Origin: a virus
IMG/VR virus record: IMGVR_UViG_3300032046_000016
Location: 1-64,000 of that record
Length of the DNA: 64,000 nucleotides
Strand: one strand, 5' to 3'
Shown: positions 19,843 to 60,920 of the stretch, in pieces
Numbering within the stretch: the first letter of the stretch is position 1
Layout: each line of letters opens with the position of its first letter
Notes under the pieces: model-generated
Database searches by the model: none
What the model was told of the DNA's origin: nothing
Seen by the model: only the letters and a program-made list of their open reading frames with translations
Translations under genes and position numbers: made by a program

Positions 19843-21198
19843 CTACGCCACGCTCACGCGGCGAGCGTTCGCGTGCAGCTTCTCCCACGGAATCTGGAGC
19901 GCCACCAGGCAGCGCATCAAGAAGTCGTACGTCCCGCGGGTGATCGCCAGCGGAATGTAGGCCATGAAGTTCGCCTGGGGCTGCCCCAACGGGTCGAGCA
20001 TGCCGACCAGCGATGCCCCGCGAGCCGGATTGCGATTGATCAGGAAGATCACCTCATCGCCGGCGTCGAGCGGCTTCTGGTTGGCGGCGTGCGGAGGCGC
20101 CGTGTACCCGCCGGTGTCGTCGAACGTGACCACCCGCGCCAACGGGTTGCCGTCCGCGTCGTAGGTGTTGGCGGGAATGACCGCCAGCAGCGTCTCCGTG
20201 CCGCTGGCCGTGCCCCGGAACACCTTGTAGAGGATGGCATCCGCGTCGTCGTCCCACGTGAGGCGGATGGTCTTGTTCGGGTTGGCGGTCGTGGCGTCGT
20301 CCTCGACCGCGGCCACCTGCTCGCCCCTCTGCGTGACCGACGCCACGCGATAGAAGAACTGCGTCGCGTCGGGCAGCGTGCCGCCGGCGACGGCTGCGGC
20401 GGAGAGGTTCCCCGGCTTCGCCACGCCGGTCGGCTTCACGTAGCTCGTTTCCAGAATGACCACGCCGCGATATGTTGACATGCGCATTCCGCCCTCGAAC
20501 TCCACGTCGGGCGTCTCCCGGCGGGCGAGGGTCTGAAGGCCGCTCACCTTCGAGTGCATGCCGATGCTCATCATGAACATCAGCGGGTCCTTCGCCGTGC
20601 CCCTGTACGGCGTGGCCGCGTCGATCAGCTCGTCCAGGACGCTGAGCGCGACGACCCCGTTCACGTCGAAGACGTTGGTCTGGGACAGGCGGTCGAACCC
20701 GTTGTACTGGTACGGGTCGCCGGACGCCGCGCCACCACCCGAGACGTCCTTCTCACCCGTGCTCCCGGAGGCGCCCCAGATGGTGCAGAACTCCAGCATC
20801 TCGCTGATGCTCTCCACGCCGGCGCCCTGCTCCAGGAGCAGAGAGTCGAAGAACTTCTTGCTCGCGCCCATCTGGAAGCCCGAAACCGAGCCCCAGTAGT
20901 CGTCGATCTTCAGGGTGACGGTGGGGCGATCGAAGGTCGACGCGCCAGGGCTGGTCTCCTTCGCCAGCTCGCCCTCGAAACGGGCCTGCTGACGCGCCGT
21001 GCGCCGCACGATCTCGTGCACCCGGGCCGTGGCCTGCGTCCTCTCAAGCAGGGCTACCAGCGGATTCTGGCTCAGAAGGTCCTCCACGAGGACCTTCTCC
21101 AGGTCTTCCGCCTGGAGAGCGGCACCAGAGCCGGAAGCCGCCGTCAGCGCCTTGATGAGCTCGCTGGTGGCCCCTTGAACCTGCGCGCTGGGGGGCAT
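19843..21198 (-). CDS. Major capsid protein with inserted Ig/FnIII-like domain
   Basis: A 451-residue HK97-fold-type capsid protein. The N-terminal 60 residues are a likely delta or arm region and hold ALQAEDLEKVL. The fold region includes KIDDYWGSVSGFQMG and a C-terminal NPARGASLVGMLDPLG ... YIPLAITRGTYDFLMR. Between about residues 265 and 385 sits an extra beta domain with FFYRVASVTQRGEQ and LYKVFRGTASGTE, resembling fibronectin-III or Ig-like insertions that decorate capsids. ATG at 21198 has GAAGGAGG upstream. It is followed by connector genes. Confidence 0.85.
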   Translation of the reverse strand: MPPSAQVQGATSELIKALTAASGSGAALQAEDLEKVLVEDLLSQNPLVALLERTQATARVHEIVRRTARQQARFEGELAKETSPGASTFDRPTVTLKIDDYWGSVSGFQMGASKKFFDSLLLEQGAGVESISEMLEFCTIWGASGSTGEKDVSGGGAASGDPYQYNGFDRLSQTNVFDVNGVVALSVLDELIDAATPYRGTAKDPLMFMMSIGMHSKVSGLQTLARRETPDVEFEGGMRMSTYRGVVILETSYVKPTGVAKPGNLSAAAVAGGTLPDATQFFYRVASVTQRGEQVAAVEDDATTANPNKTIRLTWDDDADAILYKVFRGTASGTETLLAVIPANTYDADGNPLARVVTFDDTGGYTAPPHAANQKPLDAGDEVIFLINRNPARGASLVGMLDPLGQPQANFMAYIPLAITRGTYDFLMRCLVALQIPWEKLHANARRVSVA

Positions 21199-21277: not shown

Positions 21278-22828
21278 CTACTCGACCCGCACCCCGAACA
21301 TGATGCGGTTCAGCGCGCCCAGCCTCTCACGCGGGGGCAGGGCGTCCAAGCGCTTGCGCAGGGCGGTCTCGGCCTCGCTACCCTCGGCCTCCGAGCCCTC
21401 CCCTTCGGGAGGGCTACCGCCGAGGCTCTTGTAGACCGGCCGGCGGGCCTTCGCAATCTCGCTACGGACGACCTTCGCCACGTCCACGAGGGTGAGCGGC
21501 GCGTCTCCGTTCTGACCAGTGTCACCAGCCGCGGCGGCGGGAGCCTTCTCCCCGGCATCCTTGGGCACCAGGCCGGTCCCCTTCGCCACGTCCACGATGG
21601 CGCCCTGAAGGTCCTGCACCCAGGCAACCAGCTCCTTCATGGCGTCGCGGATGCCCGTCGCGTCGACAGCGCCATCGGCGCGCTTCTCCACGGCGGGAGC
21701 CGGCGTACCGTCGCCATCGGCCTTCTGGGTAGAGCCCTCCTCGAGCAGGGCGAGCATGGCCTTCACGCCCTCCTCGATCTTGTCCATGGCGCTCTTGATC
21801 TCGATCTGGGACTGCTTCGAGAAGCGGGCTCCCCGCTTCTCGATGTCGCCCAGCGTGAGACCGCTCATGGCGACGACGGCTTCCAGAGCCCGCTTCGAGG
21901 TGTCGGTCAGCTCCTCGCTGCCGGCCGCCTTCTCCGGCTTGTAGACGGTGGCCGCGTTCTCGAAGGCGGCCAGCCACCTGGAGTTGAAGTCGCCCAGCGC
22001 CTTCTTCATGAGGTTGCCGCGCTCGTCCGTCTTGACCTCCGCGGCCTTCAGGATATTGAGCGAGACCTGGTGCAGAGCGTCGCTCAGCCGCCAGAACTGG
22101 CTCGTCGCCTCCTGGCCAGCGATCAGCCCGGCGAAGTCGGTCTGCTTCGCCACGCCACCAGCCGGCGCCTCGGCCGCAGCCTTCTGGACCGCGGCTCCCT
22201 CACCAGCCGGCGCGCCCTCACCAGCCGGCGCTCCCTCACCGGTCGGCGCGCCCTCAGCGGCCGGAGCGGCAGCGGGAGCGCCCTCGCCGGCCGGAGCGCC
22301 CTCAGCACCCTTGGCCGCTTCGCCCTCGCCCTCGCCCTCACCTTCGCCGTCGCCACCCTTCTTGGTGGGCTCCGGATAGCCGTACTTCGGCTTCTCCTTC
22401 GGCTTCTTCGCCTTGCCCGCGATGGCGGCGCGCAGCGCCTTAACCGCCTCCTGGAGGGGAGCCGGCAGGGAGTCGAAGACCTTGTCGAGCTGCTCGACAG
22501 CAGCCTTCACGGCCTTCACCTCGTCGTCCCCGAGGTCGCCGGCGGCCTTGCTCACCAGCACATCGAGGGCATTGGTGATCTCCACGGCCGCTTCCTTGCT
22601 TAGCTGGTCACCCTCGACCAGCACCGCCAACCCGCGGCCAATGGAGGCGACCTGGCCAGCCAGGTCCTTGGGGTCGGTGTCCAAGTCCGACATTCTCGCG
22701 CCTCCTTCTTGTCTGCGCTTCACGACCCACCAGTCCTCACCCAGGGCTGGCACGTCTACTAGGTCCACCCCACTGACGTGGAGATCGACCAGCTCTCCGA
22801 CTTCATCGGGCTTCTTCGCGTCAGGCAT
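21278..22828 (-). CDS. Scaffolding-type protein with XkdF-like N-terminus
   Basis: A 516-residue protein upstream of the capsid gene, the normal place for a scaffold. Residues 1-40 (ELVDLHVSGVDLVDVPALG) look like the opening of XkdF-type proteins. The rest is helical and charged, with a low-complexity block near 160-215 made of repeated EGAPAG units after a run of EG dipeptides. A second in-frame ATG at 22693 (residue 46) has a strong AAGGAGG eight to nine bases upstream, so a shorter 471-residue form may be the main product. Expected to guide procapsid assembly and be removed by the protease. Confidence 0.65.
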   Translation of the reverse strand: MPDAKKPDEVGELVDLHVSGVDLVDVPALGEDWWVVKRRQEGGARMSDLDTDPKDLAGQVASIGRGLAVLVEGDQLSKEAAVEITNALDVLVSKAAGDLGDDEVKAVKAAVEQLDKVFDSLPAPLQEAVKALRAAIAGKAKKPKEKPKYGYPEPTKKGGDGEGEGEGEGEAAKGAEGAPAGEGAPAAAPAAEGAPTGEGAPAGEGAPAGEGAAVQKAAAEAPAGGVAKQTDFAGLIAGQEATSQFWRLSDALHQVSLNILKAAEVKTDERGNLMKKALGDFNSRWLAAFENAATVYKPEKAAGSEELTDTSKRALEAVVAMSGLTLGDIEKRGARFSKQSQIEIKSAMDKIEEGVKAMLALLEEGSTQKADGDGTPAPAVEKRADGAVDATGIRDAMKELVAWVQDLQGAIVDVAKGTGLVPKDAGEKAPAAAAGDTGQNGDAPLTLVDVAKVVRSEIAKARRPVYKSLGGSPPEGEGSEAEGSEAETALRKRLDALPPRERLGALNRIMFGVRVE

Positions 22829-22836
22829 ATCCGCTC

Positions 22837-23214
22837 CTAACGCTTCTTGCGCTTGCCGTTGTTCTCGACGAGCGCCACATGGACCTCATGTATGCTGGCG
22901 GCAATCTCTCGCAGGGCCGGCATCTCGGCATCGGAGTGCGCCTTCAGCGCCGCGATGAGCTCGGTATGCTGCACTTCTGTTGCCTCCAGCCTTCTCAACA
23001 GCTCGGTGATGAACGCCTCTCTGATCTCGGCCTGGCGCCTGGCCTCCGCCATCTGTTCCTTGACGAACTCCTCGAACGCCAGGCGCTGGCGTTCTGTGAC
23101 GACCTGATTGTTGCGCACCACCCACGTGAACACCCCCGCGAGCACCAGGGCGGAGAGGAGCGTGCCGCCTTCCTTCAGCGCCTCGTACCCGAAATCGAGC
23201 ATGACCAATGTCAC
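22837..23214 (-). CDS. Single-pass membrane coiled-coil protein
   Basis: A 125-residue protein with one hydrophobic segment at about 15-33 (GTLLSALVLAGVFTWVV) followed by a long charged helix rich in Glu, Arg and Ala. The GTG at 23214 overlaps the stop of the large polyprotein gene; an ATG four codons later is the alternative start. A membrane protein inside the head operon is unusual. It may anchor procapsid assembly or act at another stage. Function unknown. Confidence 0.65.
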   Translation of the reverse strand: MTLVMLDFGYEALKEGGTLLSALVLAGVFTWVVRNNQVVTERQRLAFEEFVKEQMAEARRQAEIREAFITELLRRLEATEVQHTELIAALKAHSDAEMPALREIAASIHEVHVALVENNGKRKKR

Positions 23215-26200
23215 TTGATCTCGGACCGCTTTCTGGGTATGCGGCGCGCCCGGCCCTCAATGCTGAACCCGGTCCGCTCACCCTTCTTCACGCGCTCCCA
23301 CTCGCGCGGATCGTTCACTCGCACGCCCATGATCCAGGTGCCCTTGACTACCTTATGCAGCTTGCCATCGGTTCCCTCCAGCTCGAAGTCTGTCGGTGCC
23401 AGGTAGCTCTCGACGACCCGGAGCCTCGGGTCGTCGTACACGTGCATAACGCCGATCTGCTGGAAGCGCTCCATAAAGCCGTGCGCCGCCTTGCGGATCT
23501 CCTCGGCCTTGACCACCTCGTCCTGGAGGTCGATGTACGGCCACGGCTTGAGCACGGGCCCGTAGACCAGGTGCTCCTCCTCGACCGCCTTGATGATCAG
23601 CATCTTCAGGACGATGCGGCTCTCGACGGCCTTCGCCTTCAGATCGACGAGCTTCGGCTTCTCCCCAGGCTTTGCCCACACCAGCCAGTGATCCCCGCGC
23701 TTCCGCCTCTCGTCTGCCACCTCGTCGAGCGTCTTCGTATCGGCGACTGGCGTTTCATCCTCAGGCCACTGAGCCAGCCAGAAGCGCTCGCCGGTGGGTC
23801 GGGGGACGGAGCTGATCACCAGCCGGCCCTTCATGTCGCCCTTCTCGTCCTTCAAGAAGAGCTCGAAGCTGTGGCGGTGCCACACGCCCATGTCCCAGGT
23901 GCCGTAGGCGACGGCGAACAGCATGCCGTAGGTCTTGGAGCTGGCGCCGGCCTCGCCAGGCTTGAAGACGGCGGGCTTGCCTCGCCCGACCTTCAGCCAC
24001 TCGACGGGCGGCGGGCCGTACCAGGTGCATTGGAAGCTGGGCGCGTGGTCGGCGGCGAGGAACTCGTCGGTCCCGTCGTCGTCGGTGTCCGGCTTGAAGA
24101 TGACGGGGTGAAACATGAGCTTGGGGCTGAACTGGCAGCGCAGGTCGCCGTGGTAGCGGTAGCCGGCCTTGCGCAGGTCGGCCTCGCTCTTGCCGGCGTC
24201 CTCTTCCTTGATGCCCATGTAGTGGTGGTGATAGACGAACTGGCCCGTGCCGCTGGGCGGCCACATTCTCTGCCAGTCGGTCTCCCAGAGGCGCAGGAAG
24301 CGCTCACCCCGCGACTCGCCCTCGCCCTGCTTCAGGAGGTGGATCAGCCCGATGTCGGGGACCTCGAGCAGCTCGAAGTCGGCGTCGGCGATCTCCGGGC
24401 AGGTCACTTGTCCAGACGTCTGGACTTTCTGCTTGGGCTCCTGGAGGACGTGGGCCCGGCGGGCGATATCGACCGCTTGGTTCGCGTAGTAGGCGTCCTT
24501 CCGGCTGATGTCCCGGTCGATCACGGTCGGCACGACCCAGTACAGGATCGGCTTCCCGTCCTTATCGGGACCGCTCACCAGCTCCTGGACCTGGACGGTC
24601 AGGACGGCGCCCAGGGGATAGGTGCCGTTGTCGCTGACGCCGCCGACGTCGATGTACTCCCGGCCGTCGTACTCCTGGAGGTTCGTGTAGCTGTCGCGTC
24701 CGTGGAGCAGCCCGCAGGTGTAGGTCTTCGAGCCGCCGGCGTTGTCCTTGCTGTCGATCACCGTCACCTTCAGCTCGGTGACGTGCTTCACCTTCGACCA
24801 CTCGTTCGTCGACCCGCCGATGCCATAGGGACCGTCGAGGGTCTTCACCATGGCGCCCTCGGACATGGCGACGGCGCTCGCCTTGAGGATCGCCGCGTTC
24901 ATCTGCGCGCGGTCGTGAACGATGGTGGTGCTGGTGATAGCGAAGGCGGCCTTCCCCTTCAGGTTCTTGGCGTAGAACTCCTCCAGGGCGGTGCGCCGCT
25001 CGGTCCACGGCTTCTCGTGCAGGTCCTCTTCCCGGTAGGGCAGGTCGAAGACGGTCAGCACGACGGTGGCGCCGGCCAGGTCGGGCTCGTCGGCCAGGAG
25101 CGGGTCGAGCTCGGTGCGAGGCAGCCGCTTGCCATCCCGTACCATGCCCATATCGCAGTCGAGAATGTAGTCGCCAGGGATGGCGAGCAGCATCTTCGCC
25201 AGGTCGGGGAAGACCTTGGCCCGGTCGCGGATATTCTCGAAGGCGATCTCGACGCGGCCGCCCGCCTTCTGCACCACCGTACGGTAGCCGTTGAACTTCA
25301 CCTCGACGTCGAGGCCGCCGGCGATGCGGTCCTTTGCCCAGTGATCCCAGAGCTCCGAGCTGGACAGGAACTCCGTGTACTCGGCGACCGCCGGCTTGGG
25401 CGGTATCCACTTGCCGAAGGGCTTCAGGGCGACCTTCTCCAGGTCTTCGGCCTGCAGCGCCATCCCAGAGGGCGAGTCGGCGGTCAGCGCCTTCGTCGTG
25501 GGCTTCACGGCCCGGAGGCGCCCGCGGACGTGAACCGTCTCCCAAAGGCCCGGCTCCTCGAACGTCTCCTCCTCAAGGTCCAGGATCTCGAACTCGGCAG
25601 TAGTGCCAGCCTCCTCCCGGAGCTTGGGGTCGGCGTAGAACTGGAAGCTCAGCTTGTTCCAGTAGCTCTTGTGGGTCGGGTCGGCGAAGGCGCCCTCGCC
25701 CTGCGTGCTCGGTACCTCGAAGGCCAGGACGCCGCCGGACTTCAGCACCCGCCAGATCTCGCCCATGATGGCGACCTGGTCCTCCAGGTGCTCCAGGAAG
25801 TGCCAGGCCCGTACCTCGTCCACGCTGCCGTCGGGCCAGGGGATGCCCTGGCTCAGGTCGTGGACGACGTCCGGCTTGACGTCGGCCCGGGCGTCGATAT
25901 TCACGTAGCCGTCCAGCTTCTCCTTCCCGCAGCCCAGGTTCAGGCGCACGGGCCCAGCCTTCTTCAGCGTGACCACCGCGCGCTCTTCCACGGGACGCAG
26001 CACCAGGTCGTACAGGGGAACGTAGTCGGAGTGGGGGCCGGAGGCGCTGAACACGTGATGCAGCTCGGGCTTGCCGCTCTTGCCTGGGTCAACCTCCTTC
26101 CGCATCAGGATGGTCAACCCTTCTATCAGGCCGGCGTTGTGGTCGCACGCCTCAAGCCGGTAAAGCAGGTCTACGTCTCCGGGCTTCGAGCCGTTGCCGC

Positions 26201-26534
26201 CGGCCTTGATCGCCAGGACCTCGTCGGCCGACTGCACCGCCGAGCCGACTATGCTCACGAAGTGAGGGACGACCAGGACGGGATCGGTCAGCCGCTTCAG
26301 CACGCTGTCGTGCTTCATGCCCCGCTTGTCCATCTCGGCGACGATCCCAGCGTGGAGGGCGCGGCAGCGCTTCTGGCTCAGCGGCTTCTCGTGGACAAGG
26401 ACCTCGTTGCCCTTCTTCAGCTCGGCCCACCAGATATGCGTCAGGCGGTGGTCAGCGACAAGCCCGCCATCCGATACCTTCGACGGGTCGAACGTGTCGA
26501 TGTCCTTGATCTTGGCGATGTCCACAGCATTCAT
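23211..26534 (-). CDS. Multidomain protein: NTase-like, methyltransferase, DNA ligase, phosphoesterase-like, XkdF protease
   Basis: About 1,107 residues from the ATG at 26534 (a TTG at 26573 would add 13). Order: a nucleotidyltransferase-like region (about 90-125, GSAVQ ... GDVDLLYR); a class I SAM methyltransferase (about 195-340, VRLNLGCG, then WHFLEHLED and RVLKSGG); a linker with ALQAEDLEKV (about 346-368) also found in the capsid protein; an ATP-dependent ligase adenylation domain (Lys 413 in VKFNGYR, then VFDLP, EGAMVK near 564 and EWSKVK near 582); a region like the LigD 3'-phosphoesterase (about 763-955, FVYHHHY, HGDLRC); and an XkdF-type protease (about 976-1107, VYGPVLKPWPYID, GTWIMGVRV, GERTGFSI). 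XkdF is a prohead protease family. I see no internal stop or frameshift. Confidence 0.72.
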   Translation of the reverse strand: MNAVDIAKIKDIDTFDPSKVSDGGLVADHRLTHIWWAELKKGNEVLVHEKPLSQKRCRALHAGIVAEMDKRGMKHDSVLKRLTDPVLVVPHFVSIVGSAVQSADEVLAIKAGGNGSKPGDVDLLYRLEACDHNAGLIEGLTILMRKEVDPGKSGKPELHHVFSASGPHSDYVPLYDLVLRPVEERAVVTLKKAGPVRLNLGCGKEKLDGYVNIDARADVKPDVVHDLSQGIPWPDGSVDEVRAWHFLEHLEDQVAIMGEIWRVLKSGGVLAFEVPSTQGEGAFADPTHKSYWNKLSFQFYADPKLREEAGTTAEFEILDLEEETFEEPGLWETVHVRGRLRAVKPTTKALTADSPSGMALQAEDLEKVALKPFGKWIPPKPAVAEYTEFLSSSELWDHWAKDRIAGGLDVEVKFNGYRTVVQKAGGRVEIAFENIRDRAKVFPDLAKMLLAIPGDYILDCDMGMVRDGKRLPRTELDPLLADEPDLAGATVVLTVFDLPYREEDLHEKPWTERRTALEEFYAKNLKGKAAFAITSTTIVHDRAQMNAAILKASAVAMSEGAMVKTLDGPYGIGGSTNEWSKVKHVTELKVTVIDSKDNAGGSKTYTCGLLHGRDSYTNLQEYDGREYIDVGGVSDNGTYPLGAVLTVQVQELVSGPDKDGKPILYWVVPTVIDRDISRKDAYYANQAVDIARRAHVLQEPKQKVQTSGQVTCPEIADADFELLEVPDIGLIHLLKQGEGESRGERFLRLWETDWQRMWPPSGTGQFVYHHHYMGIKEEDAGKSEADLRKAGYRYHGDLRCQFSPKLMFHPVIFKPDTDDDGTDEFLAADHAPSFQCTWYGPPPVEWLKVGRGKPAVFKPGEAGASSKTYGMLFAVAYGTWDMGVWHRHSFELFLKDEKGDMKGRLVISSVPRPTGERFWLAQWPEDETPVADTKTLDEVADERRKRGDHWLVWAKPGEKPKLVDLKAKAVESRIVLKMLIIKAVEEEHLVYGPVLKPWPYIDLQDEVVKAEEIRKAAHGFMERFQQIGVMHVYDDPRLRVVESYLAPTDFELEGTDGKLHKVVKGTWIMGVRVNDPREWERVKKGERTGFSIEGRARRIPRKRSEIK
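24410..24425. promoter_or_regulatory. 16-bp palindrome inside the polyprotein gene
   Basis: GTCCAGACGTCTGGAC, identical to the copies at 3194 and 42563, here within coding sequence for Val-Gln-Thr-Ser-Gly. Exact conservation inside a gene points to selection for a DNA-binding site or to chance; it is part of the four-site set. Confidence 0.5.
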
Positions 26535-26542
26535 GACGACAA

Positions 26543-26569
26543 AGACCCCACCGAAAGACGGTGGGGTCT
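26543..26569 (-). terminator. Strong hairpin in front of the polyprotein gene
   Basis: An 11-bp perfect GC-rich stem (26543-26553 with 26559-26569) with a 5-base loop is followed on the minus strand by TTGTCG and, nine bases after the stem, by the ATG at 26534. It resembles a rho-independent terminator with a short U-tract. Its position right before a start codon suggests an attenuator or translation-limiting hairpin that keeps the protease-bearing protein low. The whole 26574-26616 gap contains nothing else. Confidence 0.55.
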
Positions 26570-26616
26570 CCAAGGGACCTCTTCGTTAAGTGCTGGGGAT
26601 CAGATTCAGCGCCAGG

Positions 26617-26835
26617 TCATTGCAGGCGGGCGGCCGTCCTGTTGATCTCGGCTACCAGCTCGTCAAGGGGCACCTCCCAGTAGTGCCAGGCCCCGTGGTG
26701 CTTCTGGCGCATTCGCACCACGATCACGTCACGTCTAAGGCATACCATAAACCAGGGCGCTCCGCAAGCACAATACTGAGCGCGCTCGGCACCCTCTGCC
26801 GGCGGCGTCTCATGGGCCTGCAGCTCCCGCGTCAT
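26617..26835 (-). CDS. Hypothetical small protein
   Basis: A 72-residue protein with a C-x-C pair (YCACGAPW) and a basic middle part (RMRQKHHGAWHYWEV). ATG at 26835 is used; a TTG at 26841 would make a TTGA overlap with the upstream stop and fits the AGGA sequence better. Unknown function; part of a run of small genes between head genes. Confidence 0.55.
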   Translation of the reverse strand: MTRELQAHETPPAEGAERAQYCACGAPWFMVCLRRDVIVVRMRQKHHGAWHYWEVPLDELVAEINRTAARLQ

Positions 26836-27870: not shown

Positions 27871-28887
27871 TCAGGCAGAGCGCCTCTGGCCGCTCCAAGG
27901 AACCTCCGGGCGGTCCCAGGCACAAGGATCGGCAGCGGCCTTTCGCAGCAGCTTGCCCACGCCAACCCAGCAGCGACGCGAGAACGGCGACACCCTGCAG
28001 CGGCAGCGTGGGTGTAGGGGAGGATGATCGTGGCCGCTCGGAAACATGCCCCCGAAATGGGCGCTGGGAGGCGACGGCGCCAGGAGGCCGGACCGGAGAG
28101 GCACCGCGCCGGCCGCCTCGTTGTCCCGGCAGCGTGAGCAGGCGCCAAACTGGCAGATCCACTCGACGTACTCCACGCCGTTCTGCTGGAAGGTCATCAG
28201 GCGGCCGATCTGCCGCGTGCGCTTCAGCTCGGTCCTGGCGATCAGCTCGGCGCGGTCCCGGTTCTGAACGATCTTGTCTATCTGGCCAGTCATGCGCTCC
28301 GGCCCGAAGTTGCCGGACAACCCGCGGAGGATGGAGTTGGCGATGGAGCGGCGGGTCTGCTCACGGATTCCCTTGATGCTGGAGCCCACGGTCAGCGACA
28401 GCATGCGCCGGATCGCTGGGTCGCGGAGAACGAAGCGCTCGGGCGGGAAGCCCTCGCCCTTCGGGCCCGCCTTCTTGACGTCCTGAGCGGTGTAGCCCAG
28501 CTCGGTCAGGGCGTCGGCGCCGCCCCGCTGGAAGCCCAGGATCGCGTCCAGCGCCAGGACCGTTCCCATCTTGGCCCACAGACGCTGCGCCTCCTCGCTA
28601 TCGTCCCAGGCTGCCAGCAGCCCCTCGATGCGGCTGCGCGTCGAGTTGGGCGACAGGCGCACCCATTCCTCGACCGGCATCGAACGGCGCAGCTCCGCGA
28701 ACAGGCGGAGGACACCGAGGCCGGCCTTTACCTCGTGGGGCTCAATCAGGTCGCGGGGTTTCGGGCGTGTGGGGAGCGGAAGACGGTAGCGTTGCTGGGG
28801 CGTCGCCGCCTTGAGGATGTCAGTCGCCGGAGGGCTGAGAGTCGTGGTCCTGTGCCTCCCTTCGGCGATAGCCGTTACGCTCTCCAA
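27871..28887 (-). CDS. MuF-like minor capsid / head morphogenesis protein
   Basis: A 338-residue protein. The C-terminal part has the MuF signature: IARTELKRTRQIGRLM, then CQFGACSRCRDNEAAGAV and PPLHPRCRCRV. MuF-type proteins sit inside the procapsid next to the portal and can be injected with DNA. The only start for the full frame is TTG at 28887, overlapping the previous gene by about 68 bases, without a clear Shine-Dalgarno. A 39-residue Arg-rich tail follows the conserved domain. The N-terminus has ILKAATP, similar to the portal N-terminus. Confidence 0.82.
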   Translation of the reverse strand: MESVTAIAEGRHRTTTLSPPATDILKAATPQQRYRLPLPTRPKPRDLIEPHEVKAGLGVLRLFAELRRSMPVEEWVRLSPNSTRSRIEGLLAAWDDSEEAQRLWAKMGTVLALDAILGFQRGGADALTELGYTAQDVKKAGPKGEGFPPERFVLRDPAIRRMLSLTVGSSIKGIREQTRRSIANSILRGLSGNFGPERMTGQIDKIVQNRDRAELIARTELKRTRQIGRLMTFQQNGVEYVEWICQFGACSRCRDNEAAGAVPLRSGLLAPSPPSAHFGGMFPSGHDHPPLHPRCRCRVSPFSRRCWVGVGKLLRKAAADPCAWDRPEVPWSGQRRSA

Positions 28888-29122: not shown

Positions 29123-29268
29123 ACCGCCACCGCCTCGGGAGACCGGTTCCTCTTTATCTGTTGCAGGAGAAGCCGTAGCGCGCATTGCAGGCACACGTAC
29201 TCTTCCTCAAGAGGGTCGAAGTGCAGATCGCCGCCGCACTTCGGGCAGGCCTTCAGTACGAGCCTCAC
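29116..29268 (-). CDS. Small zinc-ribbon protein (50 residues)
   Basis: GTG at 29268 overlaps the portal stop as GTGA. The protein has a full four-cysteine ribbon, CPKCGGD then VCLQC 17 residues later, and a basic C-terminal helix. It lies between portal and MuF genes and overlaps the next gene by seven bases. Role unknown. Confidence 0.7.
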   Translation of the reverse strand: MRLVLKACPKCGGDLHFDPLEEEYVCLQCALRLLLQQIKRNRSPEAVAVC

Positions 29269-30908
29269 ACCGCTAGCTGAAACAGCTCCTGCAGGTCCGC
29301 GCTCGCCGCCTTCTTCGTAGCCGCATCCACGCCGGCGTCCCGGAGGTCCTGGATCACGCTGTCGAAGTACCAGCGGATCTCGCCCTCGGTGTCCAGCTCC
29401 TGCATCGCCTTCTCGACCGCCACCTTCAGCGGGTCGGGAACCTGCGAGCTCAGGAACTTGCGCCGGCGGCCCCGCTCGCAGTCCTTGAGCGCGGCCCTCT
29501 TCCAGCGCCGCATCTCGTCCAGGACAGGCTGAGCGGCGTCGGCCTTCTGCGCCTTGCCTGCGCCCTCGGGCTGCACGAAGAGCGGAGTGGCCGCCTCGCC
29601 AGCCGGCACGAGGCCCTGATTCATCAGGAACGTATCGCCGCCCTCGTAGGGCTCCATGCCGCGCTTGGCGCGCCACTCGTTGCGGGTCTGCAGGCCGGAG
29701 CCGACCGCGCTCACGCCGACCGCCACCTCGTCGCTTTCCTTGGCGAAGTCCGGAACCTTGAACTGGATGCGCCAGCCCTTGATGCCCTTCCGCCAGAGGC
29801 GCCACATGTTCAGCGTCGTCTGCACGATCTCCTGCATGGGCTTGGCTTCCATCCAGTACAGGATCTGCTCCAGGCCCTCCAGGTTCGCGCGGTTGACGTC
29901 CTCGACCATGCCAAGCACGCCCGCCGATGCGCCCACGACGGACAGCATCTCGTTGCGGCTGAACGTCCGGCCCTTCAGGTACTCCGAGTCGCGGCCCGGA
30001 CCTGGACCGCTCACGAAGCTCTTGTAGTCGACGCCACCCTTCACGACAACGGCGTCGCGGTTGGCGTTCTCGACCCCCGCATACCAGGCCTCGATCTTAG
30101 CCTCCAGCGCTGCGAAATCGTCGTCCTCGATGTCCTCGGGCGCTGCCCACATGCCTGGTGGGGTGCGCTGATTGCGGAACGAGTTCTTGTTCCACGCCTG
30201 GGCGTACAGATCGGTGATAGCGGCGATGCGCAGCGACTCCAGGTCGGAGGCGGTCCACCGTCCCTCGATGTCGGGCACCTGGAAGTTCAGCACCTCGTCG
30301 ATGGCAAACTCGGCGGCTTTGCCCTCGAAGTACTGGATGTACGCCTTCTCCAGGTTGGGGAAGTAGCCCTTGGCGTCCACCATCGGCACCACCCGCCCCG
30401 GCATGACCACGAAGTCGATCTCGTCGCCGAAGCCGTTCTTGACGATCTCCCACGAGCAGAGGTTAAAGAGCTTCAGCCGGGCGAACGTCAGCCAGAGCTT
30501 GTGCACGGTGAGCTGCCACTGGCGGACGTTAATCACGGGCCCCTGGAGGTCGGGGTTAAAGAAGGTCCGCAGGTAGGCGCCAGCGTCGGGGTCGGGGTCT
30601 TCACCCTCTTCCAGCTCGTCGCGGGCCTCGACGATCTCCAGCGGCTGCGCCACGCAGATCAGGGCGATGCGCCGAATGGCGGCGCGCACCCAGGGTAGCG
30701 ACCGCCACAGGGCGACGAGCTCGAAGTGGCTGATCTGGGCGCTGCCCTCATACATGGCAGCCATCCCAGCGCCAAGCCCGTACAGGAAAGGTGGCCGCAT
30801 GAAGCTGCGCGGCTGCGGCGCGGACTTCGGCGATGGCGTCGCCGCCTTAATGACGCGCCGCTCGTGGCCAGGAGGAAGCCAGAGCTCAACCTCAGTCCCT
30901 GTCGTCAT
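29265..30908 (-). CDS. Portal protein
   Basis: A 547-residue HK97-type portal forming the dodecameric channel at the capsid vertex. Visible family marks: WRSLPWVRAAIRRIA near residue 70, a YFEGKAAEFAIDEVLNF strand, the stem region GRTFSRNEMLSVVGAS and a C-terminal crown with NQGLVPAGE. It follows terminase and precedes the MuF gene. ATG at 30908 overlaps the previous gene as ATGA. After residue 450 there is a charged helical extension. Confidence 0.88.
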   Translation of the reverse strand: MTTGTEVELWLPPGHERRVIKAATPSPKSAPQPRSFMRPPFLYGLGAGMAAMYEGSAQISHFELVALWRSLPWVRAAIRRIALICVAQPLEIVEARDELEEGEDPDPDAGAYLRTFFNPDLQGPVINVRQWQLTVHKLWLTFARLKLFNLCSWEIVKNGFGDEIDFVVMPGRVVPMVDAKGYFPNLEKAYIQYFEGKAAEFAIDEVLNFQVPDIEGRWTASDLESLRIAAITDLYAQAWNKNSFRNQRTPPGMWAAPEDIEDDDFAALEAKIEAWYAGVENANRDAVVVKGGVDYKSFVSGPGPGRDSEYLKGRTFSRNEMLSVVGASAGVLGMVEDVNRANLEGLEQILYWMEAKPMQEIVQTTLNMWRLWRKGIKGWRIQFKVPDFAKESDEVAVGVSAVGSGLQTRNEWRAKRGMEPYEGGDTFLMNQGLVPAGEAATPLFVQPEGAGKAQKADAAQPVLDEMRRWKRAALKDCERGRRRKFLSSQVPDPLKVAVEKAMQELDTEGEIRWYFDSVIQDLRDAGVDAATKKAASADLQELFQLAV

Positions 30909-32867: not shown

Positions 32868-33438
32868 CCAGCACCTCTTCCTCGACCTCAGGGGTGGCGC
32901 CAGTCCCAACGAAGACGTTGGTCTGGCTCTGCAGGAAGGTCGGCGGGACCGGGCGCGACGGGTACATTCCCACGTCCTGCCCGATCTCCCATATCTTACC
33001 AAGGACGGTGACCAGGGTTCGCGTGGCGCCGTCTATCTCTTCCATCAAGAAGCCCCCGCGCGCCCCTTCTTCCACCTCCATCGCCCGACCTATCCGGTCG
33101 ATCAAGGACGGCACCAGGCCGCTCAGCACTTCGAGGACGTTGATCTTGACGTCGATGCCGGCGAGCTTCTTCTGGATGAAGCTCTCGGGCAGCATCGCCG
33201 CGTCCGGAACGTGGGCCTCTCGGTAACGCTGGATGCAGCTTCGCCCTGGAATGGCGGCGAGCAGGTCGGGATAGTCGGCGTAGAGCGTGCGCAGGTAGCG
33301 TTCGACGCTGCCCGGCGACCAGCGCGACTGCAGCAGGTCAACGATGTCGTCGCAGAAGGGCGACGCCTCGACGCGGGACACGTGCCGCCCGCCCAACCGC
33401 TGCGGAGCTTTAACGGGTTCTTCGGGGTTCTCTCTCAT
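32779..33438 (-). CDS. Probable terminase small subunit
   Basis: A 219-residue protein directly upstream of the large terminase. The N-terminal part resembles a helix-turn-helix (DIVDLLQSRWSPGSVERYLRTLYADY), as in DNA-recognising small terminases, followed by helical oligomerisation segments. ATG at 33438 makes an ATGA overlap with the ParB-like gene. Assignment rests on position and predicted HTH. Confidence 0.6.
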   Translation of the reverse strand: MRENPEEPVKAPQRLGGRHVSRVEASPFCDDIVDLLQSRWSPGSVERYLRTLYADYPDLLAAIPGRSCIQRYREAHVPDAAMLPESFIQKKLAGIDVKINVLEVLSGLVPSLIDRIGRAMEVEEGARGGFLMEEIDGATRTLVTVLGKIWEIGQDVGMYPSRPVPPTFLQSQTNVFVGTGATPEVEEEVLVAYRALYENRTGRSAPRLAAPPARDPAEE

Positions 33439-34172
33439 GCCGCCCCCTTCAGCGGCGCGTAGACCTCCAGCAGCTCGTTCAGACGCTCGTTGATGTCCAC
33501 GCCAGCGCGCTCGCACTCCTCGGCGATGCGCGTGAGGTTCTTCATCGTACGCTCGCTCGCCCTCACCATCAAGTGCGTCCGGCCAGCGTACTTGAACACG
33601 ATGAAGCCCCAGTGCAACTGCTGGCCGTGCTCGGCCGTGATCTGCTTCAGCACCGACGCCAGGTCCTCGACGGTGGTGATTTCCCTCTTCGTCGCATCGA
33701 GCCGCTTGCGGATCTCGGGCGCAAGCTTGGCGCGCACGTCCCGAAACAGGCGCTTGAATTCGCTGTCCTCAGTAACGGCCATCAGCCGCCGTGTGGCGTC
33801 GGGCCCGTACTTGTTCGACAGCTCGAGAAAGACCCTGGTGAAGCCGACTCCGCTCATGCGCCCCTTCAGCATGTTGTCGCGGACCGTCTCGAACTTCCGC
33901 TTGTCCTCGTCGTAGTCGGCGAAGACGATGCAGGGAAGCTCCGGCATCTCCAGGAGCTTGGCGGCGCGCCAGCGATGCTCGCCAGCGATGATCTGGTATC
34001 TCCCGTCCGGCGTCGGCGCCACGCGCAGGGGCATCGTGAAGCCGTCCGCCTTGATGCTCTCCACCAGGGCGGCGAACGCGGCGTCGCTCTCCACGTTCGG
34101 GTTCCACTCGACCGGGTCCAGGAGGTCGACGGCGATCCTCTGCGGCTCCCGGATAGGAGGCGGTTTAGCCAT
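33435..34172 (-). CDS. ParB-like nuclease-domain protein (1)
   Basis: A 245-residue protein with the ParB/Srx N-terminal fold: a DPVEWNPN loop, ALVESIKADGFTMPLRV and the GEHRWRAAKLL box that corresponds to GERRxRA of ParB. In ParB this box binds CTP. The C-terminal 120 residues are helical and not obviously HTH. It lies between the ribbon-helix-helix gene and the terminase genes, so it may act in packaging-site choice or regulation. ATG at 34172. Confidence 0.75.
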   Translation of the reverse strand: MAKPPPIREPQRIAVDLLDPVEWNPNVESDAAFAALVESIKADGFTMPLRVAPTPDGRYQIIAGEHRWRAAKLLEMPELPCIVFADYDEDKRKFETVRDNMLKGRMSGVGFTRVFLELSNKYGPDATRRLMAVTEDSEFKRLFRDVRAKLAPEIRKRLDATKREITTVEDLASVLKQITAEHGQQLHWGFIVFKYAGRTHLMVRASERTMKNLTRIAEECERAGVDINERLNELLEVYAPLKGAA

Positions 34173-44521: not shown

Positions 44522-45382
44522 TTACCGGCCAATCATTCTGACGGGAACGAACTCGCACTCCTCCGGCAACTTGTCATCGCGCAGCCTCAAGAGCTGCGGG
44601 TGCCGAAGGGCGCCACTGGTGGGGCTCTGGCCATACGCCTTGACCACGCCGACCTTGCCGATGTAGGAGGCGAGCTGCTCGGGCGGGCCGGTGATGCCGA
44701 GCGAGCTCACCACGACCAATCGACCGTCAACGTAGAACCCGTAGCGCAGGTTCCGGTAGCCCAGCTTCTTCCGGTCCTCGGAAGTCGGCAGGCCCTCCAT
44801 GTCTACGATCACGACGTCGAACTCCTGGGTTCGCTTCACCTTCAGCCAGTCCCAGGAGCGCTTGCCGGCCTGGTAGGTCGAGGCCCGTCGCTTGAGCATC
44901 ACGCCCTCGATCCCGTTGTTCATGAGGCACTCGGCCTCGTCCAGGTCAGGCACTCCGAGTACCCGCGACGCCTGCACCAGCAGCGGCTGGTTGGCTTCCC
45001 CTACGATCATCTCGACCACTTGCCGGCGCGTGTCGAGGGGCTGGCTCTGCAGGTCGTGGCCTCCAAGCCGCGGCACGTCGAAGACGACATACCGCAGCGC
45101 CCGGCGCCAGTCGCCGCTGGCATACGCGGACGCCTCGCCCACAGGAACCATCTCGCCGTCGAGGATGGTCCCGGCGGGCAGCACCATGGCGTCGAGCCAG
45201 GCGTGCTCGCCGGTGTGCTCCATCCCCGAGCGGGCGTATTGCCTGGGGCGGTCGGCCATCACCCACACGAGGCGAAAGCCGTCGTACTTGACCTCCATCG
45301 TCCAGCTATCGTCGCCCCAGGGAACCCGTGGCGCCTTCTCCGCCTGCTGCGCGAGCATCGGTCGGAGCGGCAGTCCTGTCAT
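44522..45382 (-). CDS. ATP-dependent DNA ligase
   Basis: A 286-residue ligase adenylation domain with a C-terminal OB-like part. Catalytic Lys is in VKYDGFR (K32); other motifs are LDGEMV, YVVFDVP, GIEGVMLKRR and WLKVKR. It lacks the polymerase and phosphoesterase domains of bacterial LigD. The ATG at 45382 overlaps the Ku stop as ATGA, so the two are made together, as in bacterial non-homologous end joining where Ku recruits the ligase to ends. Confidence 0.88.
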   Translation of the reverse strand: MTGLPLRPMLAQQAEKAPRVPWGDDSWTMEVKYDGFRLVWVMADRPRQYARSGMEHTGEHAWLDAMVLPAGTILDGEMVPVGEASAYASGDWRRALRYVVFDVPRLGGHDLQSQPLDTRRQVVEMIVGEANQPLLVQASRVLGVPDLDEAECLMNNGIEGVMLKRRASTYQAGKRSWDWLKVKRTQEFDVVIVDMEGLPTSEDRKKLGYRNLRYGFYVDGRLVVVSSLGITGPPEQLASYIGKVGVVKAYGQSPTSGALRHPQLLRLRDDKLPEECEFVPVRMIGR

Positions 45383-46185
45383 GCGGCTTTCGCCTTCGCC
45401 TGTTGGACGCTCGCGGTCAGGACGCTCATCAGGTCGGCCTCGGCCGTCTCTTCCCGAGCAGCCACCTTGGTGGGCATCGGCTGGCCCATCAACTTGGCGT
45501 CGATCAGGGCGGTCAGGGCCTCACGATACTCGTCCTGCAGACCGTCTATCACATCGCCGTCCTGGGACAAGGCGCCAATAAGCTGCTCGGCAAGCTGTGT
45601 CTCCGCATCGCTGACAGCCACTTGCTCGACCAGGGAATCCAGCTCCGCGACGTTCGCCGCCTCGTCCGCCCAAAAGAGCAGGGAGACGGCCAGGAGCCGG
45701 CCTGCGGGCTCCACCACGCATAGGCTTTCCTTGCCCGTGCCGAAGGCCACCTTGCCCAGGCCCAGGAGCTTCGACCGCGCCATGGCGTCTCGGAGCAGGG
45801 CGAAGGGCTTCTGGCCAGCCTTACCGTTCGCTCCGGGCACCGCGAAGTAGGTCTTCTCGCGCCGCCCGATGGGAACTGAGTCGGCAGGGACGAAGGCGGT
45901 GAGATCGAGGCCGGCACCGCTGGCCAGCGGCAGGGCCTCCAGCTCTTCCGGCTCGAACAAGACCATCTGCTCCTTCGAGACCGGATAGCCCTTGATGATT
46001 TCCGTCTTGTCGGTGATCTCGCGGTCACAGGTCCGGCAGACCGTCGCGGAGTTTACTCGCTGGCCGCAGGGGCGGTGCACCATGTGGAACTTGGCGTCGT
46101 TATCGCGACCAGCTCCATACAGCTTCACCGGCACCGTGACCAGCCCAAACGTGATGGGCAGCGACCGCGTCGCTCTCATGGTCAT
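45379..46185 (-). CDS. ku: Ku protein (non-homologous end joining)
   Basis: A 268-residue bacterial-type Ku. It opens ATRSLPITFGLVTVPVKLY, has the CGQRVNSATVCRTCDREI zinc-like motif and GYPVSKEQMVLFEPEEL, and later SKLLGLGKVAF, all typical. Ku forms a ring on double-strand DNA ends and recruits ligase. ATG at 46185 has GAGAGG upstream and overlaps the preceding small gene. Phage Ku proteins are known from a few mycobacteriophages, where they help circularise the genome. Confidence 0.93.
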   Translation of the reverse strand: MTMRATRSLPITFGLVTVPVKLYGAGRDNDAKFHMVHRPCGQRVNSATVCRTCDREITDKTEIIKGYPVSKEQMVLFEPEELEALPLASGAGLDLTAFVPADSVPIGRREKTYFAVPGANGKAGQKPFALLRDAMARSKLLGLGKVAFGTGKESLCVVEPAGRLLAVSLLFWADEAANVAELDSLVEQVAVSDAETQLAEQLIGALSQDGDVIDGLQDEYREALTALIDAKLMGQPMPTKVAAREETAEADLMSVLTASVQQAKAKAA

Positions 46186-57642: not shown

Positions 57643-59733
57643 TTATCTTCGCGTCACCGATGGTCCATCGGGCCCGGCAGCCACGGTCAAGACGCGCTGG
57701 AAGCTGTCGGCCATCTCCTCGATATGCGTCACGACCAGTACCAGGTCGAAGTCGTCCTGCACCCCGCGGATAGCCTCCAGGAGGCGCTTACGGCCTTCCG
57801 TGTCCTGCGTACCGAACCCCTCGTCGATGGCGAGCAGCGGCATGGCGGCGTCGGCCCGGCGCGCCAGCAGGCGCGCCAGCGCCAGCCGGACGGCGAAGTC
57901 GACGCGGAACTTCTGCCCGCCGCTGCAATTCTCGTACGGTAGCTCGCCGGCCTCGTTCGTCGTCAGGACGTCCAGCGTCTCTATCGGCTGAGCGCCATCC
58001 TTCTTCGAGGCGCGTTGCGTCCTCAGCTCGACCCGGGCTCCCGACCACAGCCGATCCAGCAGCTCGTTCGCCATGCTCTCCAGCTCGGGCAGCGCTCGAT
58101 CCACGAGTAGCGCCTGTACCCCTCGTTTCCCGAACGCGTCGCCGAGCTCCTGATAGTCGGCCTGTTCCTCGGTCTGTGCCGCGACGCGCAGCCTCAATTG
58201 CCGGAGTTGCTCCTCCGCCTCCTGCGCCAGCCTTACCTCTGTCTCCAGCGCAGCAGCCTGGTCGCGGGCAGCCGTGTGCGCTTCCTCGCACTCCCTCTTC
58301 TTGGCATCGGCAGCGGTCAGCCGGTCCTGGAGGCTGCGCCGCGCCCCTTCCAGGTCGCCTATCGCGTCCAGTTGCTCGCGCGCGACACCCAAGATGTTGC
58401 TCGCCGCCAACAGGCCCTTGCGCAGGTCTTCGAGCAACCTCTCCAGGTCGGGAACCTTCGCCGCCGCCTCCCGGGCCGCCTTGACCTGCGCGCGCAGCTC
58501 GGGCACCCCGGACGCCCTTCGCCGCAGGTCCTGCAGAGTGGTGACGAGCCCCTCTTTGGCGGCTATCTGCTGCTCAAGCTCAGAGACGAACTCGGCAGCC
58601 TCGACTTCCCTATCCAGTTGCGAGCCCTGCTCAAACAGCGCCTTCGCTGCCGCCGGCGTCAGGGGCTGCAGGCAGGTCGGGCAAGGCATGTTCTCCTCGC
58701 CCTCGGCGAGCGTCGCCAGGCCCAGGTATCGCTTGGCCTGTTGCTGTTTGGCGTCAACCTCCGCCTGCCAGCGCCCGCGGGCTTCACCGTATCGTTGCCT
58801 GAGCTCAGGGAGATCACGGATCTCCTCCTCCAGAGCGGCGACCTCTTCCTCCACGTTCTCGTTCGGCTCCAGCCTGGCTTCCAGGCCGGGCAGCGCCGCC
58901 GCCTTCTCCTGGAGGTCCGCCAGCTCCTTCTTCTTCTCCTCGCGGTCTGTCTCAAACCTGTCGTACTCGTGCTGATAGACGTCCACCTGGCTGCGCAGCG
59001 CAGACTGCTCGGCGGCCTTCGCCACCGCGTCGGCCAACTGCTGAGCGAGAGCGGACTGAGCCTCGCTCGCGGCGAGCAGCTCGTCGGCGGCCCGGGCAAC
59101 CTCTTCCCTGGCGGTGAGAAGCCGGGCTCGGCAATGGCCCAGCTTGGACGCCTGCGCCTCAAGCGTCTCCTCGGCCCCCCTGGCAGCGGCCAGCTCGGTC
59201 GTCAGGTCGAGGGCGCGCCGGCGGCAGACGTCAGACAGCTCCTGGTAGCGCTCCAATCCCAGGATGGCGGCCAGGACCTCCTGCCGGTGGGCCGGCTGAG
59301 CCTGGGTGAAGACGTCGGCCTTGCCTTGGGCGAAGAACGCCGTGTTCACGAACGTGTCGTAGTCCATCCGGAGCAGGGCGCAGATGAACGCTTCCGTGCT
59401 GGCGATGGACGCGCCGGTGAGGATCTCGCCGCCCGGTCCGAACAGGAGCAGGTAGGACCTCTTCCCGCGAACGCGGCGGCGCTCGACGCGATACTCCTTC
59501 TCCTGCGCCTTGAACGTCACCTCCACGATCATGTCCTCGGCGCCTTGCCGGATCAGCTCGTCGTCGGACCTAGAGCGCGCCTGGCCCCACAGCGCCCACG
59601 TCAGCGCCTCCAGGATGCTAGACTTCCCCGCTCCGTTCGGGCCCACCAGCGCGGCGACGTGCAGATCTCGCAGATCTACCTCGGTGTCCTGGTAAGGCAG
59701 GAAGTTACGCAGTCTCAGTGTCAGCGGTATCAT
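57643..59733 (-). CDS. sbcC: SbcC/Rad50-type ATPase
   Basis: A 696-residue SMC-like protein, shorter than cellular SbcC (about 1,000). Walker A VGPNGAGKSSILEAL near residue 30, long coiled coils, a zinc hook CPTC near residue 350, ABC signature NCSGGQKF near 600 and Walker B LLAIDEGFGTQD near 635. With SbcD it forms a nuclease complex that acts on DNA ends and hairpins; phage T4 gp46/47 and T5 D12/D13 are the parallels. ATG at 59733 overlaps the SbcD stop. Confidence 0.92.
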   Translation of the reverse strand: MIPLTLRLRNFLPYQDTEVDLRDLHVAALVGPNGAGKSSILEALTWALWGQARSRSDDELIRQGAEDMIVEVTFKAQEKEYRVERRRVRGKRSYLLLFGPGGEILTGASIASTEAFICALLRMDYDTFVNTAFFAQGKADVFTQAQPAHRQEVLAAILGLERYQELSDVCRRRALDLTTELAAARGAEETLEAQASKLGHCRARLLTAREEVARAADELLAASEAQSALAQQLADAVAKAAEQSALRSQVDVYQHEYDRFETDREEKKKELADLQEKAAALPGLEARLEPNENVEEEVAALEEEIRDLPELRQRYGEARGRWQAEVDAKQQQAKRYLGLATLAEGEENMPCPTCLQPLTPAAAKALFEQGSQLDREVEAAEFVSELEQQIAAKEGLVTTLQDLRRRASGVPELRAQVKAAREAAAKVPDLERLLEDLRKGLLAASNILGVAREQLDAIGDLEGARRSLQDRLTAADAKKRECEEAHTAARDQAAALETEVRLAQEAEEQLRQLRLRVAAQTEEQADYQELGDAFGKRGVQALLVDRALPELESMANELLDRLWSGARVELRTQRASKKDGAQPIETLDVLTTNEAGELPYENCSGGQKFRVDFAVRLALARLLARRADAAMPLLAIDEGFGTQDTEGRKRLLEAIRGVQDDFDLVLVVTHIEEMADSFQRVLTVAAGPDGPSVTRR

Positions 59734-60920
59734 GGCTCTGCCATCACCGTCTCGGCCCGCCGCAGCAGGCGTTCCCGTCGTTTCGGCTCCTCGACCTTGT
59801 CAGCCAGGTATACCCGCAGGGCGTCCAGCGGCGTCATGCTTTCCACGGCCTCCTCAGTCCGACGTCGGACCTCGCCCTCGAGATCGAGCTTGATGCCCTG
59901 CACCGAGAACGCGGGCGCCAGGGCGCGCTGCAGGGCCGGCATGTCCAACTGACTGGCCACCGAGCGAGGCCCGGACACGATCACCCTCACGATGGCGTCC
60001 TCGATGCCGGCCGTTTCGATGGCGCCCACGACGAAGACGGTAGGCATGTCGCACTCGGCCGGCACCTCAACCTTGACGGTGACGAGCCGCCGGTTCCACA
60101 CCGGAAGCGGCTTCACCTGCACTTTCTGGCTGATAATATCAACCAAAAGCGCCACCTTCTCCTGGCCCTCCTCGCTGAAGTCGACGGACTGCAGGCTGCC
60201 GCTGTACCAGGCGGGCAGTGGGGCGCTCACCTGCTGGCACTCGTGTATGTGGCCTAGGGCGGCGTAGGTGACCCCGGAGAGCGCCAGGTGCAGGGCGCTG
60301 ATGGCAATCTCGTCGCCGACCGACAGGAGCCTCTCGCTGCCGTAGCGGGCCCCGACGATCGGCAGGTGGCCGGCGATGATGCGGACGCCCTCACACTTCT
60401 CGGCCGCCGCCGCCATCATCGCCTTGACGATGCGCTCGGCGACGATCAGCATCGGGTCGCCACGGCCCAGGTCGCCCTCTTCCAGCCATTGGCGCGCGCT
60501 CGGCGCCGGCACACCCAGGATCTCCAACGGGCCGCTATTCGTCTCTACCCGGTACAGGCCCACTCGGTCGATGATCACAAGCGGAAGGCCGGCCGCCTTC
60601 AGCGCGTCGTAGGCGGTGTCCCTGGAGGTCAACCTCAGGGCATCGTGGTTGCCTAAGACCACGACGATCGGGATCGCTTTCTTGTCAGCCAGTCGGCGCA
60701 GCGGCTCCGCGAAGGCTCGCAGCACGATCGGGCTCGGCCGGCGCACCGCGAAGGCGTCGCCGCAGAACACGAACGCGTCAACGCCGTGCAGAACGGCGAG
60801 GTCAGTCGTCTCCTCCCAGGCGCGCACGTAGTCAGCCATGCGCAGGGAGCTGCCATCGGGGGCAAGAGGCGCGTCTGGCGCCAGGTCGAGGTGAAGGTCC
60901 GCACAGTGCAACAGGCGCAT
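59730..60920 (-). CDS. sbcD: SbcD/Mre11-type nuclease
   Basis: A 396-residue metallophosphoesterase. Motifs in order: HCADLHLD, FVFCGDAF, VVLGNHDALR, IIAGHLPIVG and LGHIHECQQV, giving the two-metal site. The C-terminus is the capping domain that contacts SbcC. ATG at 60920 has an ATAGGAGGGCATCTGA leader and a promoter at 60946-60974, so sbcDC is its own unit. Confidence 0.92.
   Translation of the reverse strand: MRLLHCADLHLDLAPDAPLAPDGSSLRMADYVRAWEETTDLAVLHGVDAFVFCGDAFAVRRPSPIVLRAFAEPLRRLADKKAIPIVVVLGNHDALRLTSRDTAYDALKAAGLPLVIIDRVGLYRVETNSGPLEILGVPAPSARQWLEEGDLGRGDPMLIVAERIVKAMMAAAAEKCEGVRIIAGHLPIVGARYGSERLLSVGDEIAISALHLALSGVTYAALGHIHECQQVSAPLPAWYSGSLQSVDFSEEGQEKVALLVDIISQKVQVKPLPVWNRRLVTVKVEVPAECDMPTVFVVGAIETAGIEDAIVRVIVSGPRSVASQLDMPALQRALAPAFSVQGIKLDLEGEVRRRTEEAVESMTPLDALRVYLADKVEEPKRRERLLRRAETVMAEP

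Follow-up and report, generated by a model that had tools for sequence, protein, structure and literature searches.

The stretch of DNA analysed here (the window) comprises bases 1-64000 of the 80,904-base virus record IMGVR_UViG_3300032046_000016, whose source is an uncultured tailed phage, hereafter the window phage. Its head operon contains one large gene, the subject of this report, predicted to encode a polyprotein of DNA-repair enzymes joined to a prohead protease. The gene order is portal, MuF (with small open reading frames, ORFs, in between), polyprotein, a small protein, the scaffold-like g23 and the major capsid protein (MCP); an earlier note on this DNA had correctly put the gene between portal/MuF and scaffold. 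From its N-terminus, the polyprotein runs through a region with nucleotidyltransferase (NTase) motifs, a methyltransferase (MTase), an ATP-dependent ligase with its oligonucleotide-binding (OB) domain, a LigD-type 3'-phosphoesterase (PE) and a C-terminal XkdF domain (Table 1).

Table 1. Features of the polyprotein gene and other genes of the window phage. Coordinates are those of the window unless prefixed with L003; residues are those of the polyprotein unless stated.
Feature	Coordinates	Strand	Basis or remark
Whole polyprotein ORF, 1,107 aa	23211..26534	-	ATG start at 26534
Pol-beta-superfamily-like NTase region, residues ~86-193	25956..26279	-	Motif conservation only
Class I S-adenosylmethionine (SAM) MTase, residues 196-335	25530..25949	-	Methyltransf_11 3.7e-8; conserved with L138/L139
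Linker copying the capsid N-arm, residues 348-368, KALTADSPSGMALQAEDLEKV	25431..25493	-	MCP match
ATP-dependent DNA ligase, NTase + OB domain, residues 367-676	24507..25436	-	PF01068 3.5e-16
LigD-type 3'-phosphoesterase, residues 739-960	23655..24320	-	Fold search and family profiles
XkdF (S78_2) prohead protease domain, residues 980-1099	23238..23597	-	PF14550 1.1e-29
Hairpin, ~14 pairs, just 5' of the polyprotein ATG	26540..26572	-	Terminator-like match
Portal protein	29265..30764	-	PF04860 4e-23
MuF-like minor head protein	27871..28680	-	PF04233 1.4e-6, just below Pfam cut-off; PHROG head families
Scaffold-like protein between polyprotein and MCP	21278..22828	-	Position and composition; no family match
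MCP, HK97-type	19843..21198	-	Leptospira phage LE3/LE4 homologue; phrog_752/phrog_212 major head protein
MCP N-arm motif, MCP residues 16-36	21091-21153	-	Source of the linker copy
Additional stand-alone ATP-dependent DNA ligase, motif I KYDG	44522..45358	-	PF01068 4.4e-21
Ku protein	45379..46185	-	PF02735 2.5e-31
SbcC/Rad50-like + SbcD/Mre11-like pair	57643..60839	-	DNA-end resection genes
HerA-like ATPase near the SbcC/SbcD pair	63681-64000 into L003:1-1408	-	
PolX-like polymerase, palm + thumb, 184 aa	L003:5059-5613	-	End-joining set with Ku and stand-alone ligase

The frame is open from its ATG at 26534 down to 23211, across all 1,107 codons. The single unbroken frame of about this length described in the earlier note is therefore borne out, with the strand, absent from that note, now fixed as minus. 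The G+C content of third codon positions (GC3) is 0.86-0.97 in each 100-codon block, an even coding signal throughout; as it is 0.66 on the other strand, the overlapping plus-strand ORF 23208-26645 (1,145 codons) was set aside as a shadow. All the motifs previously quoted were found again: GDVDLL (119-124), VRLNLGCG (196-203), VKFNGYR, EGAMVK, EWSKVK, FVYHHHY and HGDLRC. Above their Pfam cut-offs, XkdF matches residues 980-1099, DNA ligase 408-583 and Methyltransf_11 223-272. The hairpin upstream of the start codon is more stable than expected (z -4.1; 0/200 shuffles fold equally well), and expression of the gene may be under separate control. In addition, a TTG codon at 26573, accompanied by the Shine-Dalgarno-like AGAGG, reads through this hairpin.

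The XkdF domain scores 103.5 bits against a curated cut-off of 24. Residues D1002, H1031, E1042 and S1091 are invariant in 20/20 sequences, and the putative catalytic H1031 and S1091 are kept also in distant XkdF proteins. With the family match and these active-site columns, the C-terminal XkdF call holds. No second head-protease match was found among the phage proteins scanned, which did not include every small ORF; judged by sequence, it is the polyprotein that fills the protease slot of the operon.

In the ligase, motif I is K413-F-N-G, motif IV EGAMVK and motif V WSKVK, and residues K413, N415, G416, R418, E559, K564, K581 and K583 are invariant in 24/24 sequences. Its PDB matches are DNA ligases, in line with the DNA ligase called in the earlier note, and we describe it as ligase-like with a variant motif I. 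DNA ligases mostly carry KxDG in this motif, and KxNG occurs in some RNA ligases. The MTase call is likewise sustained by its family match. That of the NTase is the least firm, and motif conservation argues for it: after a helical N-terminus (1-85) come V96-G97-S98, D120-V-D122 and Y175-D176-L177, forming the hG[GS]...DxD...third carboxylate pattern, with G97, S98, D120 and D122 present in 21/21 relatives and D176 in 17/21. The Pfam scan is silent on this region, and its AlphaFold2 (AF2) model, with a predicted local distance difference test score (pLDDT) of 49, is unusable. On comparison, no kinship with the phage's own PolX was detected.

For the PE, Pfam (including LigD_N) gives no match on the window polyprotein alone, and the identification came through the relatives presented below. 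Their PE alignment matches LigD PE in hhalign (81%, E 1.2e-5), the family profile has a sole match among PDB sequences (3p43, E 0.007), and Pfam LigD_N matches 2/5 relatives tested (best 8e-5). A Foldseek search of the AF2 model (pLDDT 66, from an input alignment without LigD sequences) ranks 3p4h and 3p43, both archaeal LigD 3'-PE structures, first and second in the PDB with probability 1.00, all others being at or below 0.15. The active-site set H-x(n)-H-x-D-x-R is present (H771 in 19/19; H795, D797 and R799 in 21/21). By profile, PDB search and fold alike, the similarity to the LigD phosphoesterase noticed earlier is upheld.

Relatives were not easily found. Whole-protein tblastn against 50,697 phage records returned single-domain matches only; single-sequence searches of contigs, both viral and genome, recovered none, whether the query was the whole polyprotein or its PE piece, and terminase and Ku scans fared no better. 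They emerged from alignment-guided scans of IMG/VR, with a two-sequence XkdF alignment (L058, L057 and L089), then a ligase alignment (L138-L143), then a three-sequence MTase-ligase alignment (24 loci); an alignment of seven XkdF sequences diverged too much for the purpose. The nearest members are 46-47% identical to the window polyprotein in the MTase-ligase part. About two dozen viral contigs, from many samples, share the same domain order, and a sequencing error or assembly chimera, which the earlier note had named as a possible source of the fusion, is thereby ruled out. It is virtually certain from these comparisons that we deal with a genuine family joining repair enzymes to a prohead protease.

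Complete relatives read NTase-(Dam)-MTase-ligase-(UDG)-PE-XkdF, as assigned by profiles built from few members. In those tested, Pfam confirms the uracil-DNA glycosylase (UDG; 1.9e-25, 3e-22 and 1.7e-20) and Dam (1.5e-19), and the ligase and XkdF likewise. Dam is fused in L138 and L171; UDG is absent from L159, L160, L169 and L177, as from the window polyprotein; L058 and L143 have the PE ahead of the ligase. The presence of UDG and Dam marks the cargo as a DNA-repair set. In the relatives tested, the polyprotein has portal or MuF on one side and the capsid gene on the other, despite capsid families that vary (phrog_1005, phrog_1623 and that of the window phage). Single-cargo XkdF proteins also occur: that of Arthrobacter phage Kharcho has a 2H phosphoesterase, that of L057 Dam and that of L089 a possible methyltransferase, a weak match below cut-off. 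Given that the nearest members are 19-36% identical to the window polyprotein in the PE and 46-47% in the MTase-ligase part, the invariance of catalytic residues points to selection for active enzymes.

Some details of the family stand apart. Frame breaks interrupt the UDG and PE of two otherwise intact polyproteins (L170:9533-9629 and L176:1893-1936), by sequencing error or a real split. In L058, L143 and L141, a conserved domain (LSWQRFKGQxVIR...FHLxI...DFQL) between the PE, or the N-terminus, and the ligase may be a further β-barrel related to the PE. Labels of 'DNA methyltransferase' or 'RNA ligase' on XkdF proteins of other phages were traced to small XkdF proteins or to the 2H phosphoesterase fusion, of different architecture.

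At the joint between MTase and ligase of the window polyprotein lies a copy of the capsid N-arm, which surfaced as an unexpected second match, in the MCP gene, when the record of the window phage was itself searched. Polyprotein residues 348-368 (KALTADSPSGMALQAEDLEKV) and MCP residues 16-36 (KALTAASGSGAALQAEDLEKV) share 18/21 residues and 49/63 nucleotides; the runner-up segment of the phage proteome scores 27, against 96 for the MCP arm. As 7 of the 18 common residues use different codons, the copy is not a recent duplication. The MCP homologue of Leptospira phage LE3 carries KALTSATGSGEALVPQKLE at the arm motif. HK97 gp5, whose 102-residue delta domain is cleaved off (PMC4351075), aligns with it without gaps just past the maturation cut, K|SLGSDADSAGSL (K-A-L-T... 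versus K-S-L-G...). On these two alignments, the motif belongs by origin to the MCP. We take the linker as a candidate prohead-protease site or capsid tag.

A second copy, of independent origin, was found in a distant phage. In L162, the polyprotein segment TIQTPGIHTPQYIKNFRVDYA matches the N-terminus of the phage's own capsid protein, TVQTPGIHTNVYLSKIAVNYA, which is of Phage_cap_E type and unrelated to the MCP of the window phage. Under a uniform shuffle test of 16 loci, the window phage reaches z 11.5 and L162 z 9.7, all others remaining at or below 2.0; with 2/16 loci, an arm copy as a general rule is rejected. The polyproteins of L162 (1805-5338) and L164 (2522-6055) have at their N-terminus a prohead protease of Mu-I type (PF10123, 3e-12), and XkdF, looked for in both, was not found. 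In L162 the order is Mu-I protease, capsid copy, then an NTase-like GS...SDLDL motif. A separate downstream ORF of L162 (5281-6123) has a weak PE match.

The fusion to a head protease has thus outlasted a change of protease type and of terminus, which makes processing with the head hard to dismiss as its purpose. The earlier note had proposed a polyprotein cut by the head protease; arm copies in two distant phages and the protease swap with the fusion kept strengthen that proposal, the cleavage itself still being inferred. We regard it as quite likely that the polyprotein is cut by its own protease.

The following course of events would account for these observations. The protease domain would co-assemble with scaffold and MCP, carrying the cargo into the prohead. 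During maturation, the protease would cut the N-arm of the MCP and the look-alike linker alike, in the latter near K348|A349, as suggested by alignment with K103|S104 of HK97. The freed enzymes, folded and too large to exit the head, would stay on beside the packaged DNA and, once infection begins, enter with the genome: the PE would heal damaged 3' ends and the ligase seal nicks or ends, while, in relatives, UDG where present would remove uracil from the incoming genome, and Dam where present would methylate the DNA ahead of any phage gene expression. In the window phage, newly made Ku, stand-alone ligase and PolX may help to join ends before integration.

On the whole we consider this scheme, of a prohead-protease polyprotein with DNA-repair cargo that is cut during head maturation, kept beside the packaged genome and put to use when this enters a cell, to be probable. 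Retention of the enzymes in the virion appears likely in itself, and their action on the incoming genome is slightly favoured. The idea that enzymes are left in the virion for genome entry, already put forward in the earlier note, remains our preferred inference; the UDG and Dam of relatives lend it weight, as do the Ku, PolX and second ligase of the window phage. We lean, if gently, towards a whole class of virion-borne DNA-repair kits not described before, in which enzymes for base excision, end healing, ligation and methylation, fused to whichever prohead protease a phage has, with joints that sometimes bear copies of the phage's own capsid maturation site, are released in the maturing head and delivered with the genome for its repair on entry.

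Several points weigh against this scheme. To leave through a long tail, the enzymes would have to unfold. No capsid-arm copy exists in 14/16 loci tested, and the arm might serve docking instead of cutting. Motif I of the ligase is KxNG instead of KxDG in 24/24 sequences. The second active-site pair of the PE, H84 and Y88 in Pseudomonas aeruginosa LigD, has no clear equivalent His/Tyr pair in the PE alignments. Finally, Ku was found in 0/43 records of relatives, all possibly fragments; Ku as a general partner of the polyprotein family is thus unsupported, and we consider it a special feature of the window phage, outside the general kit.

The cargo could instead act as a polyvalent counter-defence, repairing or masking DNA hit by host defences while the NTase and MTase modify host proteins or small molecules. 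This is unlikely as the main role, even if the survey of polyvalent proteins proposes protein NMPylation by their NTases and antirestriction by their methylases (PMC5512222), and even if Dam in L138 and L171 would suit it: UDG, PE and ligase are generic repair enzymes, not known as anti-defence proteins. It overlaps with delivery on entry, and hence the two are partly complementary.

Slightly less likely still is a role late in infection, in or near the prohead, as quality control of the DNA being packaged, which would make ejection unnecessary. The packaging motor would come to a halt at nicks, uracil and blocked 3' ends, and the anatomy would be the same, the fusion co-localising the enzymes with the prohead in either case. 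A stand-alone late ligase, however, would do equally well, and the window phage has one; Dam fits protection on entry better, though methylation before packaging would do too.

That ligase and PE restore tRNAs or other RNAs after cleavage by nucleases of the host seems improbable: the PE of LigD acts on 3'-ribonucleotide ends, the ligase has its KxNG throughout and Kharcho gp87 joins its 2H phosphoesterase to XkdF, but in both family and PDB comparisons the ligase comes closest to DNA ligases, and the UDG and Dam of relatives act on DNA. Lastly, that the enzyme domains are non-catalytic, worn-out or structural ballast targeting the protease to the prohead is very hard to believe, for although some motif residues differ from textbook forms and the PE-like region of L057 looks degenerate by eye, catalytic residues are invariant at the low identities given above.

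The closest known kind of protein is the polyvalent proteins of phages, characterised by packaging and injection, which our scheme would extend to the polyprotein. Their C-terminal assemblin-like peptidases are expected to process them according to their founding survey (Iyer et al. 2017, PMC5512222). As described there, they are large multidomain enzyme fusions from the structural operons of portal-terminase phages, and their peptidase, where present, is of prohead type and C-terminal. The polyprotein likewise combines unlike activities in one chain (2-15 domains in polyvalent proteins), is encoded with portal/terminase/head genes and has its peptidase C-terminal by position (XkdF, 980-1099 of 1,107); L162 and L164 differ, with the protease N-terminal. 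What sets it apart is the repair cargo (ATP ligase, LigD PE and UDG) and the linker copy of the phage's own capsid arm. The main text of that survey mentions no LigD and no glycosylase, and ligases only as RNA ligases. In the open-licence literature, we found no report of this domain combination.

Other systems share parts of the design. Bacterial LigD, the ligase of non-homologous end joining (NHEJ), also joins an ATP ligase to a 3'-phosphoesterase, and the window phage has Ku as well; the domain order of the polyprotein differs, however, and NTase, methyltransferase and prohead protease are added. The Pfam scan of the polyprotein gave no LigD_Prim-Pol match, and for want of this archaeo-eukaryotic primase (AEP) polymerase domain we do not class it as LigD. 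With XkdF/S78_2 prohead proteases it shares a family match far above cut-off, the active-site columns and the head-operon slot, but their usual members here have ~130-420 aa, either free-standing or extended by a scaffold-like part, and the polyprotein adds ~950 residues of enzymes. Kharcho gp87 has its enzyme fused upstream of XkdF too, as one small cargo domain only. In T4 and SPN3US, internal head proteins are cut by the prohead protease and some are ejected (PMC10052503); there the cargo is encoded in separate genes with cleavable N-terminal propeptides, whereas here protease and cargo form one polypeptide.

Mycobacteriophages Omega (cluster J) and Corndog (cluster O) also encode Ku. NHEJ was implicated in circularising their genomes, and Ku was suspected to be packaged in the virion: transfection with Omega DNA gave no plaques, and the suspected packaged end-joining protein was not detected by mass spectrometry (PMC3706429). 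No virion-coupled ligase is described for them; the window phage, in contrast, ties ligase and PE to its head protease. If our scheme is true, phage particles bear repair enzymes for their own genome, making damaged or linear DNA usable before expression. The open question of PMC3706429 would then become testable, as the route into the particle that we propose, by fusion to the head protease, is readable in the gene. For a prohead-protease site or head-targeting tag, the capsid-arm copies supply a candidate that is concrete and can be mutated.

Among the remaining genes, Ku has as its phage matches, in the collection searched, only 81 Mycobacterium records and one uncultured record. Three ParB-domain proteins are encoded on the minus strand (33435-34172, 40401-41273 and 46450-48108). 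The interval 34346-37736 (-), 5' of the terminase-like gene, encodes proteins resembling, by eye, a glycosyltransferase, an aminotransferase and a dehydratase of sugar nucleotides. At the contig end, a tRNA-Asp (78-154, +) has as neighbours (594-2664, -) the genes of a tyrosine integrase and of a Gp3-like recombination directionality factor, a possible attachment site or prophage boundary. In Arthrobacter phage Mufasa8, gp3 (L009:2003-5005) unites portal, NUDIX and MuF in one protein, with XkdF directly after, and is by its sequence another enzyme fused into head proteins.

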